Of a DNA stretch of 64,000 nucleotides, positions 1 to 4,939 are shown piece after piece. Origin of the DNA: Dyella terrae (GTDB lineage: Bacteria; Pseudomonadota; Gammaproteobacteria; Xanthomonadales; Rhodanobacteraceae). Under the pieces are notes generated by a model. That model was not told where the DNA came from and did no database searches. It was given only the letters and a program-made list of their open reading frames with translations. The translations under genes and the position numbers were made by a program. The stretch lies in NCBI RefSeq assembly GCF_004322705.1, contig NZ_SIZZ01000001.1:1178001-1242000 (forward strand), written 5' to 3'. Numbering within the stretch: position 1 is the first letter of the stretch; the number at the start of each line of letters is the position of its first letter.

Positions 1-387
1 TTAGTTGACCTTTCCAGTCAACTTGACGTCTTCAATCGCCTGCATCGCTACAGTGAAGCCGTTCAGCTCGTCGAGCAGATCAAAGAAGCGAGCCAATATC
101 TCTTGGAGCTCGATCTGGTGAACGATGAACTCCGCGTAAGGGGGTTTACCGCCAAAGAGCGTGACAAAGCGCAGAAGGAGTACACGGAGGCGGAAAAGCG
201 CCTTGGGGAGAACGGCGACGTCGTTCTTGTATCAGTGGAAAACGTGAACGCCCTTCGCAAGGCTTTTCCGAACTACTTTGCAGACACCACTCTCTTCATA
301 GCAACACTTGACGAAGTGCTGGCCTGGGAATCCGACGAAGTGAATAACCTCCTGATCGAATGGCTCAGTAAACGCCCTGAAGAATAA
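1..387 (+). CDS. C-terminal part of a probable RelA/SpoT-domain protein (5' end outside the window)
   Basis: The reading frame is open from base 1 to a TAA at 385-387, giving about 128 residues with no start of its own, so it is the tail of a gene that begins to the left. A TTG at 103 is in frame but has no reason to be a start. The visible part is acidic and helical and ends with the pattern VLVSVENVNALRKAFPNYF, then an F-A-D-T-T stretch. From memory this resembles the C-terminus of stand-alone RelA/SpoT-domain proteins, which make (p)ppGpp or related alarmones; the catalytic domain would lie off the window. The assignment is recognition of a short pattern and not a demonstrated match. It sits in the low-G+C block with two other accessory genes. 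Confidence 0.5.
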   Translation, partial: LVDLSSQLDVFNRLHRYSEAVQLVEQIKEASQYLLELDLVNDELRVRGFTAKERDKAQKEYTEAEKRLGENGDVVLVSVENVNALRKAFPNYFADTTLFIATLDEVLAWESDEVNNLLIEWLSKRPEE

Positions 388-585: not shown

Positions 586-620
586 AAGTGAGGGATTGAA
601 CCTGCAATCCCCTGCCACTT
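586..620 (-). terminator. Imperfect hairpin at the 3' end of the 619-1329 gene
   Basis: GGGATTG (592-598) and CAATCCC (605-611) form a perfect 7-bp inverted repeat with a 6-base loop, extended by AAGTG/CACTT at 586-590 and 616-620. It abuts the stop codon of the minus-strand gene. There is no downstream T-run, so it is at best a weak terminator or an RNA-stabilising stem. Confidence 0.3.
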
Positions 621-1329
621 ACCCCGCAGGTTCGGTCACGAATTCCAATAGTTCACGCCCAACCAGTGAAATGATCATCCGCTGAAAATTACTGGAAGCT
701 AGACGAGTTCCGGCACGATAGTCGTTAGTGAGCAAGCCGCGCGAGTTAAGGTCCCTGAGAACTAGCGCAAGGTATTCGCGGTCAACCCCATCGAGGGCCA
801 CCAGCTGAGCGAGTCGCTCCAGTGCCTTGTCATCCGACATGTCCACCATGCCTGCGTCAACCCCGAACAACTTGTCGCCGTAAATTTTCAGAACAACAAA
901 GTGCGATGCGTCCAGTTCATCGACTAACCGAATGAAAAGACGTTTCCGTTCAGCCGGTGCATCTAGTACAGCCGAGTTTGCTACGCATGCAAGTAGACGC
1001 GTTCTCTTTTCGCTGGAAGCCGAACGCCTGCCAGATTCGATGGCCGCAAATACAACGTCCTGGAAGCCCTCGTCATTTGCAAGGCTCGTTGCGGAAATTC
1101 CGCGTTGCTCAAGCGCATTGATAGCGTTCGCAACTTGCTCAAGAAATTCTTGAGTGCGGCGCTGCGCAGGGCTAACGATGGCGAGCTGCACAGCCTCGGA
1201 CAGAAACGGGCCAACAAGGGGCACCGATCCAAGGCCTGCTTTGACAGCCATTGAGTGAATCACATCGCCGGCGGTCGCACGAGAATCGGGAGCAGTCAAT
1301 CGGCCGTCTTTGCTCATTTCATGGTCCAT
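619..1329 (-). CDS. Hypothetical protein, accessory region, 236 aa
   Basis: I cannot name this gene. The product starts with about 30 polar residues, then has a glycine/proline-containing hydrophobic stretch (GLGSVPLVGPFLSEAVQLAI, about residues 33-52). A mostly helical domain follows with an early charged PAQRRTQEFLEQ segment, a middle EKRTRLLACVANSAVL segment and a late VDELDASHFVVLKIYGD segment. That order resembles an unnamed family often met in genomic islands, but I know no function for it. The start ATG at 1329 overlaps by 11 bases the end of a short upstream frame (1319-1501). Base composition is clearly more A+T-rich than in the core genes to the right. A membrane-associated or immunity-type role would be speculation. 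Confidence 0.6.
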   Translation of the reverse strand: MDHEMSKDGRLTAPDSRATAGDVIHSMAVKAGLGSVPLVGPFLSEAVQLAIVSPAQRRTQEFLEQVANAINALEQRGISATSLANDEGFQDVVFAAIESGRRSASSEKRTRLLACVANSAVLDAPAERKRLFIRLVDELDASHFVVLKIYGDKLFGVDAGMVDMSDDKALERLAQLVALDGVDREYLALVLRDLNSRGLLTNDYRAGTRLASSNFQRMIISLVGRELLEFVTEPAG

Positions 1330-1751: not shown

Positions 1752-3062
1752 TCACTCTGGATCTTCAGAGGCTCCCGCAACAGCGGCAGCTGCAGCTGCC
1801 GCAGGTGCCGTCTTTATTGTTTTCGCGACCGATAGGGCACGACCAGCAAAATCTTTCATCTGCTCGGCAAACCCGGGCACAACCCTTAACGCTTCTTTTA
1901 CTGCGCTTGAAGACAGCAGCTCGTGCCACGGACTTCCATGTGTCTCGGTTTCTACAAGCCTCAGAGGCAATTCATCTAGTCGATTAAGAGCAGATGCGAG
2001 AAGGCGCGCCTCCATGTCCTTGTCAAATCGAGCGGCCTCACGACGGAAGCCCTCGTAAGCCCGCGAGATGGACGCCTTGAATGCGTAATCTTCAGCGAGC
2101 CTGAATCTCTGCCCGATCTGCTTTGTTGCCAACCAGGCAAACCAAACCGGCGCGCCCACCGAAAGCAGAGACAATAGTAGATTCAAGATAATCACTGCGC
2201 TGGACGCACTTGGCAGTTTTATCAAATCAGACAATGCATGGAGCTGATGAGATCCGAAATAGCTACCAGCCCCCAGCGCAACCAACAATCCCAGGACCCA
2301 AACCCACATTGACTTAGACAATGTGTCTGAGCGTTCATTGAATGCTGCAGCCAAACCTACGCTTGTGGCAGCTGAGTAAGCTGTCTCACAGCGCTGAAGC
2401 ACTGCAATCGCCTCCTGGGAACTTTGGCTGAGACTATATTCAGCAGCATTAGCCTTATCCCGAAGACCTGAAAGAAGCCCGATATCCTCATTCGCGCCAA
2501 GCAGTAGATCTGATATCTGTTGGCGCGCATCTGATAGCGACTCTAGATCAGTTGGCAATTGGTCTGCGGCTTCATATGCCTTTTCAATTCGCTCGACCAT
2601 CGAAGTCAACGAGATTGATTTTGGTTCCAGCGACTTGAGCCGGGCTTCGAGGCCACGCAGTTGCTGAGTAGTCTTGCGCAGTTTTTCTGAAGCTTCCGAT
2701 TGAAGATCTCGTACCAGAGCCGGTGCGAGGACATTCCTCAATCCTTGCAGAGTCAGCATGTAGGCGGGAACTGCCAGACCAGCATTGGACCACATGTTCG
2801 GGATCGTCTGGCCGCGCAGATGGGCTAGTCTACGGACGTAATCGTTTATCTTAGATTCGGCATCACCAAGATCTTCCACACCCTTCTCATCAATCAGCTC
2901 GACGATCGACTCCGCCTCAGCGGCTAACTCTGCTCTTGTAAGACCAGGAAATGACCAATTGTTGTGTATATTTCCGAGCGGCTCGTCATTGGGTAGTGCC
3001 GACTCAAGCGCGCTGACAACATGCTCGAGTTCTGCCTTAACCTTTTGAAGTACTTCGTTCAT
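1752..3062 (-). CDS. Coiled-coil protein with two central membrane segments, hypothetical, 436 aa
   Basis: No family recognised. I chose the ATG at 3062 over a GTG at 3080 because AAGGGGG sits 6-7 bases upstream of it. The N-terminal half (to about residue 240) is long-helical and probably coiled-coil, rich in Leu/Glu/Lys/Gln, including a Glu-Ala-Arg-Leu-Lys-Ser-Leu-Glu-type heptad region. Two hydrophobic segments follow (one starting WVWVLGLLVALGAG, the second around AVIILNLLLSLLS), then a charged RRE-rich region and an alanine run of nine residues near the C-terminus. The layout suggests an inner-membrane protein with large cytoplasmic domains. It lies between the hypothetical gene at 619-1329 and an intact tRNA-Ser, at the edge of the A+T-rich block, so it is likely island cargo. 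A defence or mobile-element role is possible but nothing in the sequence proves it. Confidence 0.75.
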   Translation of the reverse strand: MNEVLQKVKAELEHVVSALESALPNDEPLGNIHNNWSFPGLTRAELAAEAESIVELIDEKGVEDLGDAESKINDYVRRLAHLRGQTIPNMWSNAGLAVPAYMLTLQGLRNVLAPALVRDLQSEASEKLRKTTQQLRGLEARLKSLEPKSISLTSMVERIEKAYEAADQLPTDLESLSDARQQISDLLLGANEDIGLLSGLRDKANAAEYSLSQSSQEAIAVLQRCETAYSAATSVGLAAAFNERSDTLSKSMWVWVLGLLVALGAGSYFGSHQLHALSDLIKLPSASSAVIILNLLLSLLSVGAPVWFAWLATKQIGQRFRLAEDYAFKASISRAYEGFRREAARFDKDMEARLLASALNRLDELPLRLVETETHGSPWHELLSSSAVKEALRVVPGFAEQMKDFAGRALSVAKTIKTAPAAAAAAAVAGASEDPE

Positions 3063-3201
3063 TAAATCCCCCTTATTCACACTATCCCTAGTTCGACCGA
3101 ATATAGGTGATATGCGCGCGACAGAAAATCTGTCATTCCGACGGCAGAACTCGCACCCCGGGTGGGGCAGCAGGAACTAGACGAAAGGATTGGGAACTAA
3201 G

Positions 3202-3239: not shown

Positions 3240-3329
3240 TGGCGGAAGGGGTGGGATTCGAACCCACGGGAAGGTCTCCCTTCCGACGGTTTTCAAGACC
3301 GTTGCAATCGACCACTCTGCCACCCTTCC
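3240..3329 (-). tRNA. tRNA-Ser (anticodon UGA), complete, CCA encoded
   Basis: Read on the minus strand, the gene folds as a class II tRNA. The acceptor stem is GGAAGGG/CCCTTCC with discriminator G and an encoded CCA. The anticodon stem is ACGGT/ACCGT around loop CTTGAAA (anticodon TGA). A long variable arm (GGAAGG-GAGA-CCTTCC) marks serine or leucine type, and the T arm is GTGGG-TTCGAAT-CCCAC. All stems pair, so it should be functional. Its 5' half differs from the truncated tRNA-Ser at 3446-3486 except for the 13 bases around the anticodon. Confidence 0.95.
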
Positions 3330-3445
3330 GAGGTGCGCGGGACGCCATTGCAACGTCCGTGGATTTTTCTTCGCAAACAACAGTTTTGGAAACTGATGCA
3401 TTAAAGATAACTACTTGTTTTTGCTGGTGATTTTTAACTCACAAA

Positions 3446-3486
3446 GTTTTCAAGACCGGTGCCTTAAACCGCTCGGCCACTCTTCC
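3446..3486 (-). pseudogene. Truncated tRNA-Ser(UGA): 5' half only
   Basis: On the minus strand the sequence begins GGAAGAGTGGCCGAGCGG and runs through the D arm and the anticodon CTTGAAA, like a normal serine tRNA. After the AC that follows the anticodon loop it changes to TTTGTGAG and A+T-rich DNA, with no variable arm, T arm or 3' acceptor strand. It cannot make a tRNA. It directly follows serS, where a native serine tRNA would plausibly sit, and its last 13 bases (CGGTCTTGAAAAC) are identical to the same part of the intact tRNA at 3240-3329. This is the pattern left by recombination in an anticodon loop. Confidence 0.85.

Positions 3487-3561: not shown

Positions 3562-4939
<1,378 letters not shown>

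Follow-up and report, generated by a model that had tools for sequence, protein, structure and literature searches.

What has cut the gene for tRNA-Ser(UGA) in Dyella terrae (assembly GCF_004322705.1), and what now reads the codon UCA in this organism? The window analyzed here is a stretch of 64,000 nucleotides, C1:1178001-1242000 of a 4.22 Mb genome in nine contigs. Behind serS it carries only the 5' half of a tRNA-Ser(UGA) gene, and close to that half lies a complete tRNA gene with the same anticodon. We find that the native tRNA-Ser(UGA) has been split by a mobile element and that its halves are intact. In all likelihood, an integrative element of ~5.1 kb entered the anticodon loop of this single-copy gene and carries a complete substitute. 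The features that bear on this reading are the following.

3562..4842, minus strand: serS, the chromosomal neighbour of the native tRNA (from reading the sequence; homologues in relatives by tblastn)
3446..3486, minus strand: 5' half of the native tRNA-Ser(UGA), attL side, ending 2 bases past the anticodon loop
3446..3456, minus strand: shared core GTCTTGAAAAC, present in both native halves
3448-3454, minus strand: 7-bp anticodon loop CTTGAAA, inside the shared core
3240..3329, minus strand: complete element-borne tRNA-Ser(UGA)
C1:1176310-1176369, minus strand: 3' half of the native tRNA-Ser, left of the window and 5.1 kb from the 5' half

An earlier note on this DNA had described both the 5' half and the complete tRNA; reading of the minus strand confirms the former and ARAGORN the latter. 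The note had also treated the complete tRNA, about 120 bp away, as the counterpart of the 5' half at the break. The true partner is the distant 3' half, for which the note had suggested searching the genome. It was found by comparing a 261-bp stretch of the locus with 59 genomes of the family, its own included (the family search), and it matches the 3' part of the complete tRNA with 89% identity (E 3.1e-13). This half starts GTCTTGAAAACCGG and runs through a complete T arm, the acceptor strand and CCA. Joined at GTCTTGAAAAC, the two halves yield a tRNA-Ser(UGA) without fault that matches an intact tRNA of another genome (L092) at all 90 bases, which excludes a chance match; since the joined halves are perfect, the native gene was whole at the time of the cut and neither half has decayed. 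The halves flank an element of low G+C content, 5,087 bp from core to core with 52.6% G+C (each kb of the window from position 4001 rightward has 58-68%). This agrees with the proposal in the note that the native tRNA was broken by an island which supplied a complete replacement. The 13-mer CGGTCTTGAAAAC, which the note had placed at the break, is indeed shared exactly by the 5' half and the complete tRNA, and these are its only 2 occurrences in the genome; it is not a recombination junction, however: both are UGA tRNAs, which is why they have it in common.

The substitute lies on the same strand as the severed 5' half and directly behind it, across a spacer of 116 bp. Of the 47 tRNA matches in the genome, the ten of at least 82 bases, all assigned by ARAGORN, comprise one Ser gene each with the anticodons GCT, GGA, CGA and TGA, five Leu genes and one Tyr gene. 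A second UGA tRNA-Ser, sought genome-wide by tRNA scan, ARAGORN assignment and 13-mer search, was not found. The codon is in regular use: UCA accounts for 64 of 17,854 codons in crude open reading frames (ORFs) of at least 150 amino acids in the window right of 3500, and it occurs in 34 of these 49 frames. In E. coli, tRNA-Ser(UGA) is essential. Because no other tRNA with an anticodon for UCA was found, any loss of the island tRNA other than by precise excision is expected to kill the cell or to cost it dearly. After precise excision the native tRNA gene would be whole again, so that the cell would be bound to the element only where precise excision is unavailable. The addiction-like anchor suggested earlier for the island would therefore hold solely against imprecise loss.

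Relatives without the element whose loci were read have an intact native tRNA and lack the fragment found in D. terrae. In G030, for example, a single intact native tRNA comes straight after serS, and G019, from the same genus as D. terrae, has serS, an intact tRNA and one structured tRNA-derived unit. The earlier note had held that close relatives without the low-G+C block but with the same intact tRNA plus fragment would speak against an island; these loci are not of that kind.

The split recurs in two other genomes, G051 and G035 (Dyella solisilvae, Rhodanobacteraceae). Their native tRNA is likewise split in the anticodon loop, and the plan is the same: native 3' half, cargo, element-type tRNA, spacer, native 5' half. 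The substitute is a complete tRNA-Ser(UGA) by ARAGORN in these genomes too, and the joined halves are perfect 90-nt tRNAs, identical to the intact tRNAs of L046 and L059. At the element junctions themselves ARAGORN calls no tRNA in any of the three genomes. No other native-type match was obtained in G051 or G035, and a further Ser gene found in each carries the anticodon CGA. The three elements measure 5,087, 4,816 and 3,802 bp from core to core, have 51-54% G+C, and place the substitute 118, 127 and 173 bp from the loop. The core common to both ends is 11 bp long in D. terrae, 13 bp in G051 and 7 bp in G035, where it is exactly the anticodon loop CTTGAAA; 7 bp is the overlap size given as usual for tyrosine recombinases in the part of the review that treats them (PMC8371274). 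The elements resemble one another in DNA only around XRE, in the tRNA and in stretches close to their ends, and the cargo differs (a RelA/SpoT-domain protein in D. terrae, a caspase-domain protein in G035, and DUF2806 and DUF6650 proteins in G051). Since related elements with other cargo did the same in two other genera, the destruction and replacement of the tRNA looks like a strategy rather than an accident.

The gene order in the D. terrae element, from the 3' half inward, is HTH_17, XRE, RelA/SpoT, the 236-amino-acid gene, the 442-amino-acid gene and the tRNA.

C1:1176573-1176869, minus strand, outside the window and inward of the 3' half: HTH_17 gene, excisionase-like
C1:1176892-1177200, plus strand, outside the window: XRE regulator gene
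from C1:1177239, with its 3' part at 1..387 of the window, plus strand: gene for a RelA/SpoT-domain protein of 382 amino acids (PADLOC PDC-S33, E 1.5e-117)
619..1329, minus strand: cargo gene for a 236-amino-acid protein, function unassigned (weak phrog_26838 match, E 3.9e-5)
1752..3080, minus strand: cargo gene for a 442-amino-acid protein, function unassigned (phrog_34659 match, E 2e-66)
3330..3445, minus strand: end of the element, from the core to the substitute tRNA (42% G+C counted from the loop, 118 bp)
3428-3437, minus strand: TTAAAAATCA, found in the spacers of all three sister elements

The best PHROG match of the HTH_17 protein is the excisionase family phrog_66 (E 1.9e-5), and the same is true in G051 (~2e-5). 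PDC-S33 is a candidate defence family of PADLOC; Pfam gave no match for the 236- and 442-amino-acid proteins. The cargo of these elements often looks as though it serves phage defence. No phage structural gene was recognised among the element proteins searched, and no integrase was recognised among the scanned ORFs of the D. terrae element or the main ORFs of those in G051 and G035. The integrase gene for which the earlier note had suggested looking left of the window was not found in the element, and the four PF00589 matches in the genome lie elsewhere, none of them near it.

Because an integrase was not found, and only an excisionase-like HTH_17, an XRE gene and swappable cargo were, the element is probably moved in trans by the tyrosine integrase of another element. 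Such a helper would cross over within the 7-base loop CTTGAAA. Insertion would break the target tRNA rather than rebuild the gene, because the attachment site of the element matches just the loop and the nearest bases (7-13 bp), and the complete tRNA beside the attachment end would keep the cell alive. A complete tRNA would also spare the element the mismatched chimeras that restoration by a 3' half risks in new hosts. The acceptor stem of the host tRNA is GGAAGAG in D. terrae and GGAGAGA in G051 and G035, and the tRNAs of all three sister elements start GGAAGGG; a self-contained tRNA may thus avoid an acceptor-stem mismatch in a new host.

The rival that survives best, although we consider it unlikely, is an ordinary tRNA-targeting island or prophage that lost its integrase and acquired the substitute tRNA secondarily. 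The missing integrase agrees with such decay, as do the persisting excisionase-like and repressor-like XRE genes, and the HTH_17 gene may itself be broken in G035. Remnants of this kind are known as cis-mobilizable elements (CIMEs), defined in the pertinent section of PMC5704250 by lost integration and transfer genes and retained att sites. Like them, the present elements retain attL and attR and integration genes were not found, an excisionase-like gene remaining; unlike the CIMEs described there, the three have ends that are related among themselves, differ in their cargo and each carry a substitute tRNA. Decay also fits poorly with three sisters that have no integrase in the scanned ORFs and yet keep their ends, end repeats and XRE gene intact while the cargo varies. 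Moreover, the attachment sites deduced here could not restore the tRNA, so that the substitute was probably needed from the first insertion.

A single insertion in a common ancestor, followed by vertical inheritance and loss in most relatives, appears improbable to us. It would account for the divergence of the XRE protein, whose identity to that of D. terrae is 82% in G035 and 72% in G051, not far from the 84-89% of SerS in the same two genomes (tblastn). Descent from one insertion is hard to reconcile with elements in three genera but in no fourth genome of the 398 searched, including five others of the same genus, and with cargo that is entirely different among the three; native halves that are still perfect would be odd for ancient dead fragments. 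A tandem tRNA-Ser(UGA) pair in which one copy decayed, or recombination between the copies, can be dismissed as a source of the 5' fragment with little hesitation, since the absent 3' half survives undamaged at a distance of 5.1 kb, rejoins perfectly and gives a tRNA identical to that of another genome, the same split occurs in three genera, and the extra tRNA-Ser-derived copies that many relatives do carry beside an intact gene are of another type in 12 of 31 loci (with an anticodon-loop insert of 74-78 bases and the T arm lost).

How widespread is an element that has most likely entered the loop and replaced the tRNA it broke? A profile of the XRE protein and an end-repeat pattern were both built from the elements of D. 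terrae, G035 and G051, so that their matches to these three genomes arise by construction and the weight lies in finding no fourth. In 398 genomes of the order the profile matched eight at E up to 1e-18; the three lay below 1e-50, where no fourth genome was found, and the other five were no better than 5.8e-21. None of the five other genomes of the genus among the 398 had an XRE match below 1e-50. The pattern CCGTCAAWCN4GTCAAWCA occurred in 3 of the 398 genomes (the same three) at 5 places, all inside elements, and its reversed control gave zero matches. The core plus TTAAAAATC was too loose as a search pattern, with 21 of 398 genomes matched and 5 by its reversed control. Searching 303 genomes of the class with the XRE profile returned the D. 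terrae genome alone at E up to 1e-24; in a genome contig collection it returned the G035 record and one unrelated weak match, and since it missed G051 there, the reach of that collection is limited. The profile matched nothing in viral contigs and gave one weak match in plasmids. No integrase-bearing sister element was found in the 398 genomes of the order or, with the XRE profile, in the viral contigs.

Searching the order with the substitute tRNA gave matches (E up to 1e-14) in 95 of the 398 genomes; it yielded 30 loci, all of which were read. Two of them, in genomes of another family, may be independent cases or remnants. In G278 an intact native 5' half is followed after 7 bp by an element-type tRNA, then by a gene for 319 amino acids without match and a TIR gene (PF10137, PDC-S35); in G360 the native 5' half has decayed. 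Because G278 leaves almost no room (7 bp) for a separate promoter, we favour the view that the substitute tRNA may be read from the promoter of the severed native gene. A further four loci, L066, L067, L068 and L071 (in G341, G391, G372 and G123), carry an element-type tRNA-Ser(UGA), 89-92% identical, and no 5' half within 240 bp upstream; these are perhaps completed take-overs from which the element has since gone.

The search for the helper integrase and for the source of the tRNA gave one lead. The fetched stretches around the four PF00589 matches of the D. terrae genome contain no core and no TTAAAAATC motif. A phmmer search with six ORFs from these loci (two of them on the wrong strand) against 67 loci, including 100 kb left of the window, found nothing, with limited sensitivity. 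At L163:4012-5303, a tyrosine integrase with an arm-binding domain has at its start an exact copy of the end repeat of the G035 element, which adjoins what appears by eye to be a tRNA 3' end; this is the sole one of 17 pattern matches in viral contigs with such an integrase nearby (phmmer). It serves as a lead only: this integrase may be related to the helper. For the substitute tRNA, a phage or plasmid origin was considered and set aside, the best matches being uninformative at 84%. Five viral stretches have the exact 5' sequence of the element tRNA, and CTTGAAA lies upstream in one of the five, at -1275; they were judged unrelated. One of them, L142, has just 87 bp upstream.

Several points weigh against an element that is moved by a helper and replaces the tRNA it breaks. 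Movement has not been observed; with a single genome for each species in the collection, strain polymorphism is not visible. The element proteins are only somewhat more diverged than SerS, which leaves some probability to vertical descent with many losses. In G035 HTH_17 was matched over 34 residues only. For G035 and G051 the status of the substitute as sole UGA tRNA comes from the family search. As to promoter sharing, a consensus scan of the D. terrae locus found no promoter-like site. G278 and G360 fall outside the XRE matches, and no 3' half was found in the ~39 kb read for each. With regard to the helper, two of the four PF00589 matches fall within frames 401 and 435 amino acids long, which could be integrases of other mobile elements; the 17 viral stretches with the end repeat are about what our estimate gives by chance; and the L163 integrase has weak partial matches of 25-31% identity in the three hosts. 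With these points in view, we advance a wider picture tentatively, as one that has somewhat less than an even chance of being right as a whole: a family of minimal, integrase-less hitchhikers that would destroy an essential tRNA gene and bring a portable, self-contained replacement, possibly read from the native promoter, which would offer a fresh anticodon-loop target for later insertions and make imprecise loss costly, so that the replaceable anti-phage cargo is kept.

The normal rule is that the tRNA is rebuilt on integration, as the relevant parts of the Islander paper (PMC4383910) and of a review of archaeal recombinases (PMC8371274) state. The closest parallel is tRNA-dependent lysogeny, described in 2024 for phages of Actinobacteria by Guerrero-Bustamante and Hatfull in mBio (PMC10865867), and the comparisons with it below follow the portions of that paper that deal with each point. 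There, as here, the sites lie in or near the anticodon loop, and a short common core (11, 13 and 7 bp in our three elements) does not rebuild the host tRNA. Those phages are complete and have their own integrase; the present elements, in contrast, measure 3.8-5.1 kb, have no integrase found and no structural gene recognised, and carry a tRNA-Ser(UGA) beside the attachment end, in Gammaproteobacteria, with swappable cargo. Because a phage with its own integrase was looked for and not found, the element lies outside tRNA-dependent lysogeny in the strict sense, although by analogy it appears to work in the same manner. The tRNA of the phage Fionnbharth and its gene 37 overlap on opposite strands, and a promoter has been demonstrated in the region upstream of that tRNA (PMC10865867). 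The prophage Lj965 of Lactobacillus johnsonii, as the same source describes it, similarly fails to rebuild the tRNA and encodes a cognate one, differing from our elements in being a prophage; that account mentions no functional test (PMC10865867).

Islander islands resemble the present element in lying between a tRNA gene and a displaced fragment and in having an anticodon-loop sublocation; they differ in that, by the account in PMC4383910, their attP fragment restores the gene and the search for them looks for an integrase, and neither holds here. Since the Islander search relies on a restored tRNA and an integrase, it should miss the present class. Tycheposons, as described in PMC10872708, likewise carry cargo and are bordered by a tRNA gene, but they carry a tyrosine recombinase, of which none was found here, and that description makes no claim that the native tRNA is destroyed. 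What appears to be new here is tRNA-dependent logic in small, integrase-less, cargo-swapping elements of Gammaproteobacteria; the literature searched showed us no comparable element without an integrase, which is not proof that none exists. The logic would thereby reach beyond phages of Actinobacteria to tiny elements with swapped cargo in three genera, where PMC10865867, in its part on the subject, calls for work on the spread of tRNA-dependent lysogeny. It suggests that mobile DNA can take over an essential tRNA gene from its host, and it predicts that the cell requires the island tRNA only for as long as the element remains inserted.

Some further observations concern the tRNA-Ser(UGA) genes of relatives. 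The locus has been rearranged within the genus of D. terrae: in G053 and G040 (L099 and L100) an intact tRNA-Ser(UGA) is inverted relative to serS and lies near a photolyase gene. In 12 of 31 loci (L044, L045, L047, L049 and L052-L059) tRNA-Ser-derived units of ~160 bp, single or in tandem, lie upstream of an intact tRNA-Ser(UGA); the D. terrae locus has none. Each unit begins with the 5' half of the tRNA as far as anticodon base 36 (our numbering), followed by an insert of 74-78 bases that holds several hairpins; then come the 3' strand of the anticodon stem and a GC hairpin, the T arm being lost. Serial insertions were considered as the origin of the tandem tRNA-Ser fragments and rejected, since these fragments are a different, structured unit with an anticodon-loop insert. 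Two hairpins of the insert have GGA loops, for example GGCAGGATGCC and GGGCAGGATGCCC, which we take to resemble CsrA/RsmA sites. In an alignment that takes a single unit from each locus, 12 of the 45 predicted pairs show changes on both sides in at least one sequence. Rfam at its gathering threshold gave no unit match in the four of the 12 loci scanned (L044, L045, L047 and L053), and the literature searched held nothing relevant on such units. They look like a small structured RNA of tRNA origin that has yet to be described. By eye, extra tRNA-like copies of another sort, with long GC-rich T-loop inserts, are present at L046, L050, L080, L082 and L085-L090; these occur in several families of the order. 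Finally, Rfam gives a C4 antisense RNA match at L045:1934-2016 on the minus strand (58.4 bits), ~3.4 kb from the tRNA-Ser gene of G057; phage C4 antisense RNAs belong to P1/P7-type immunity.
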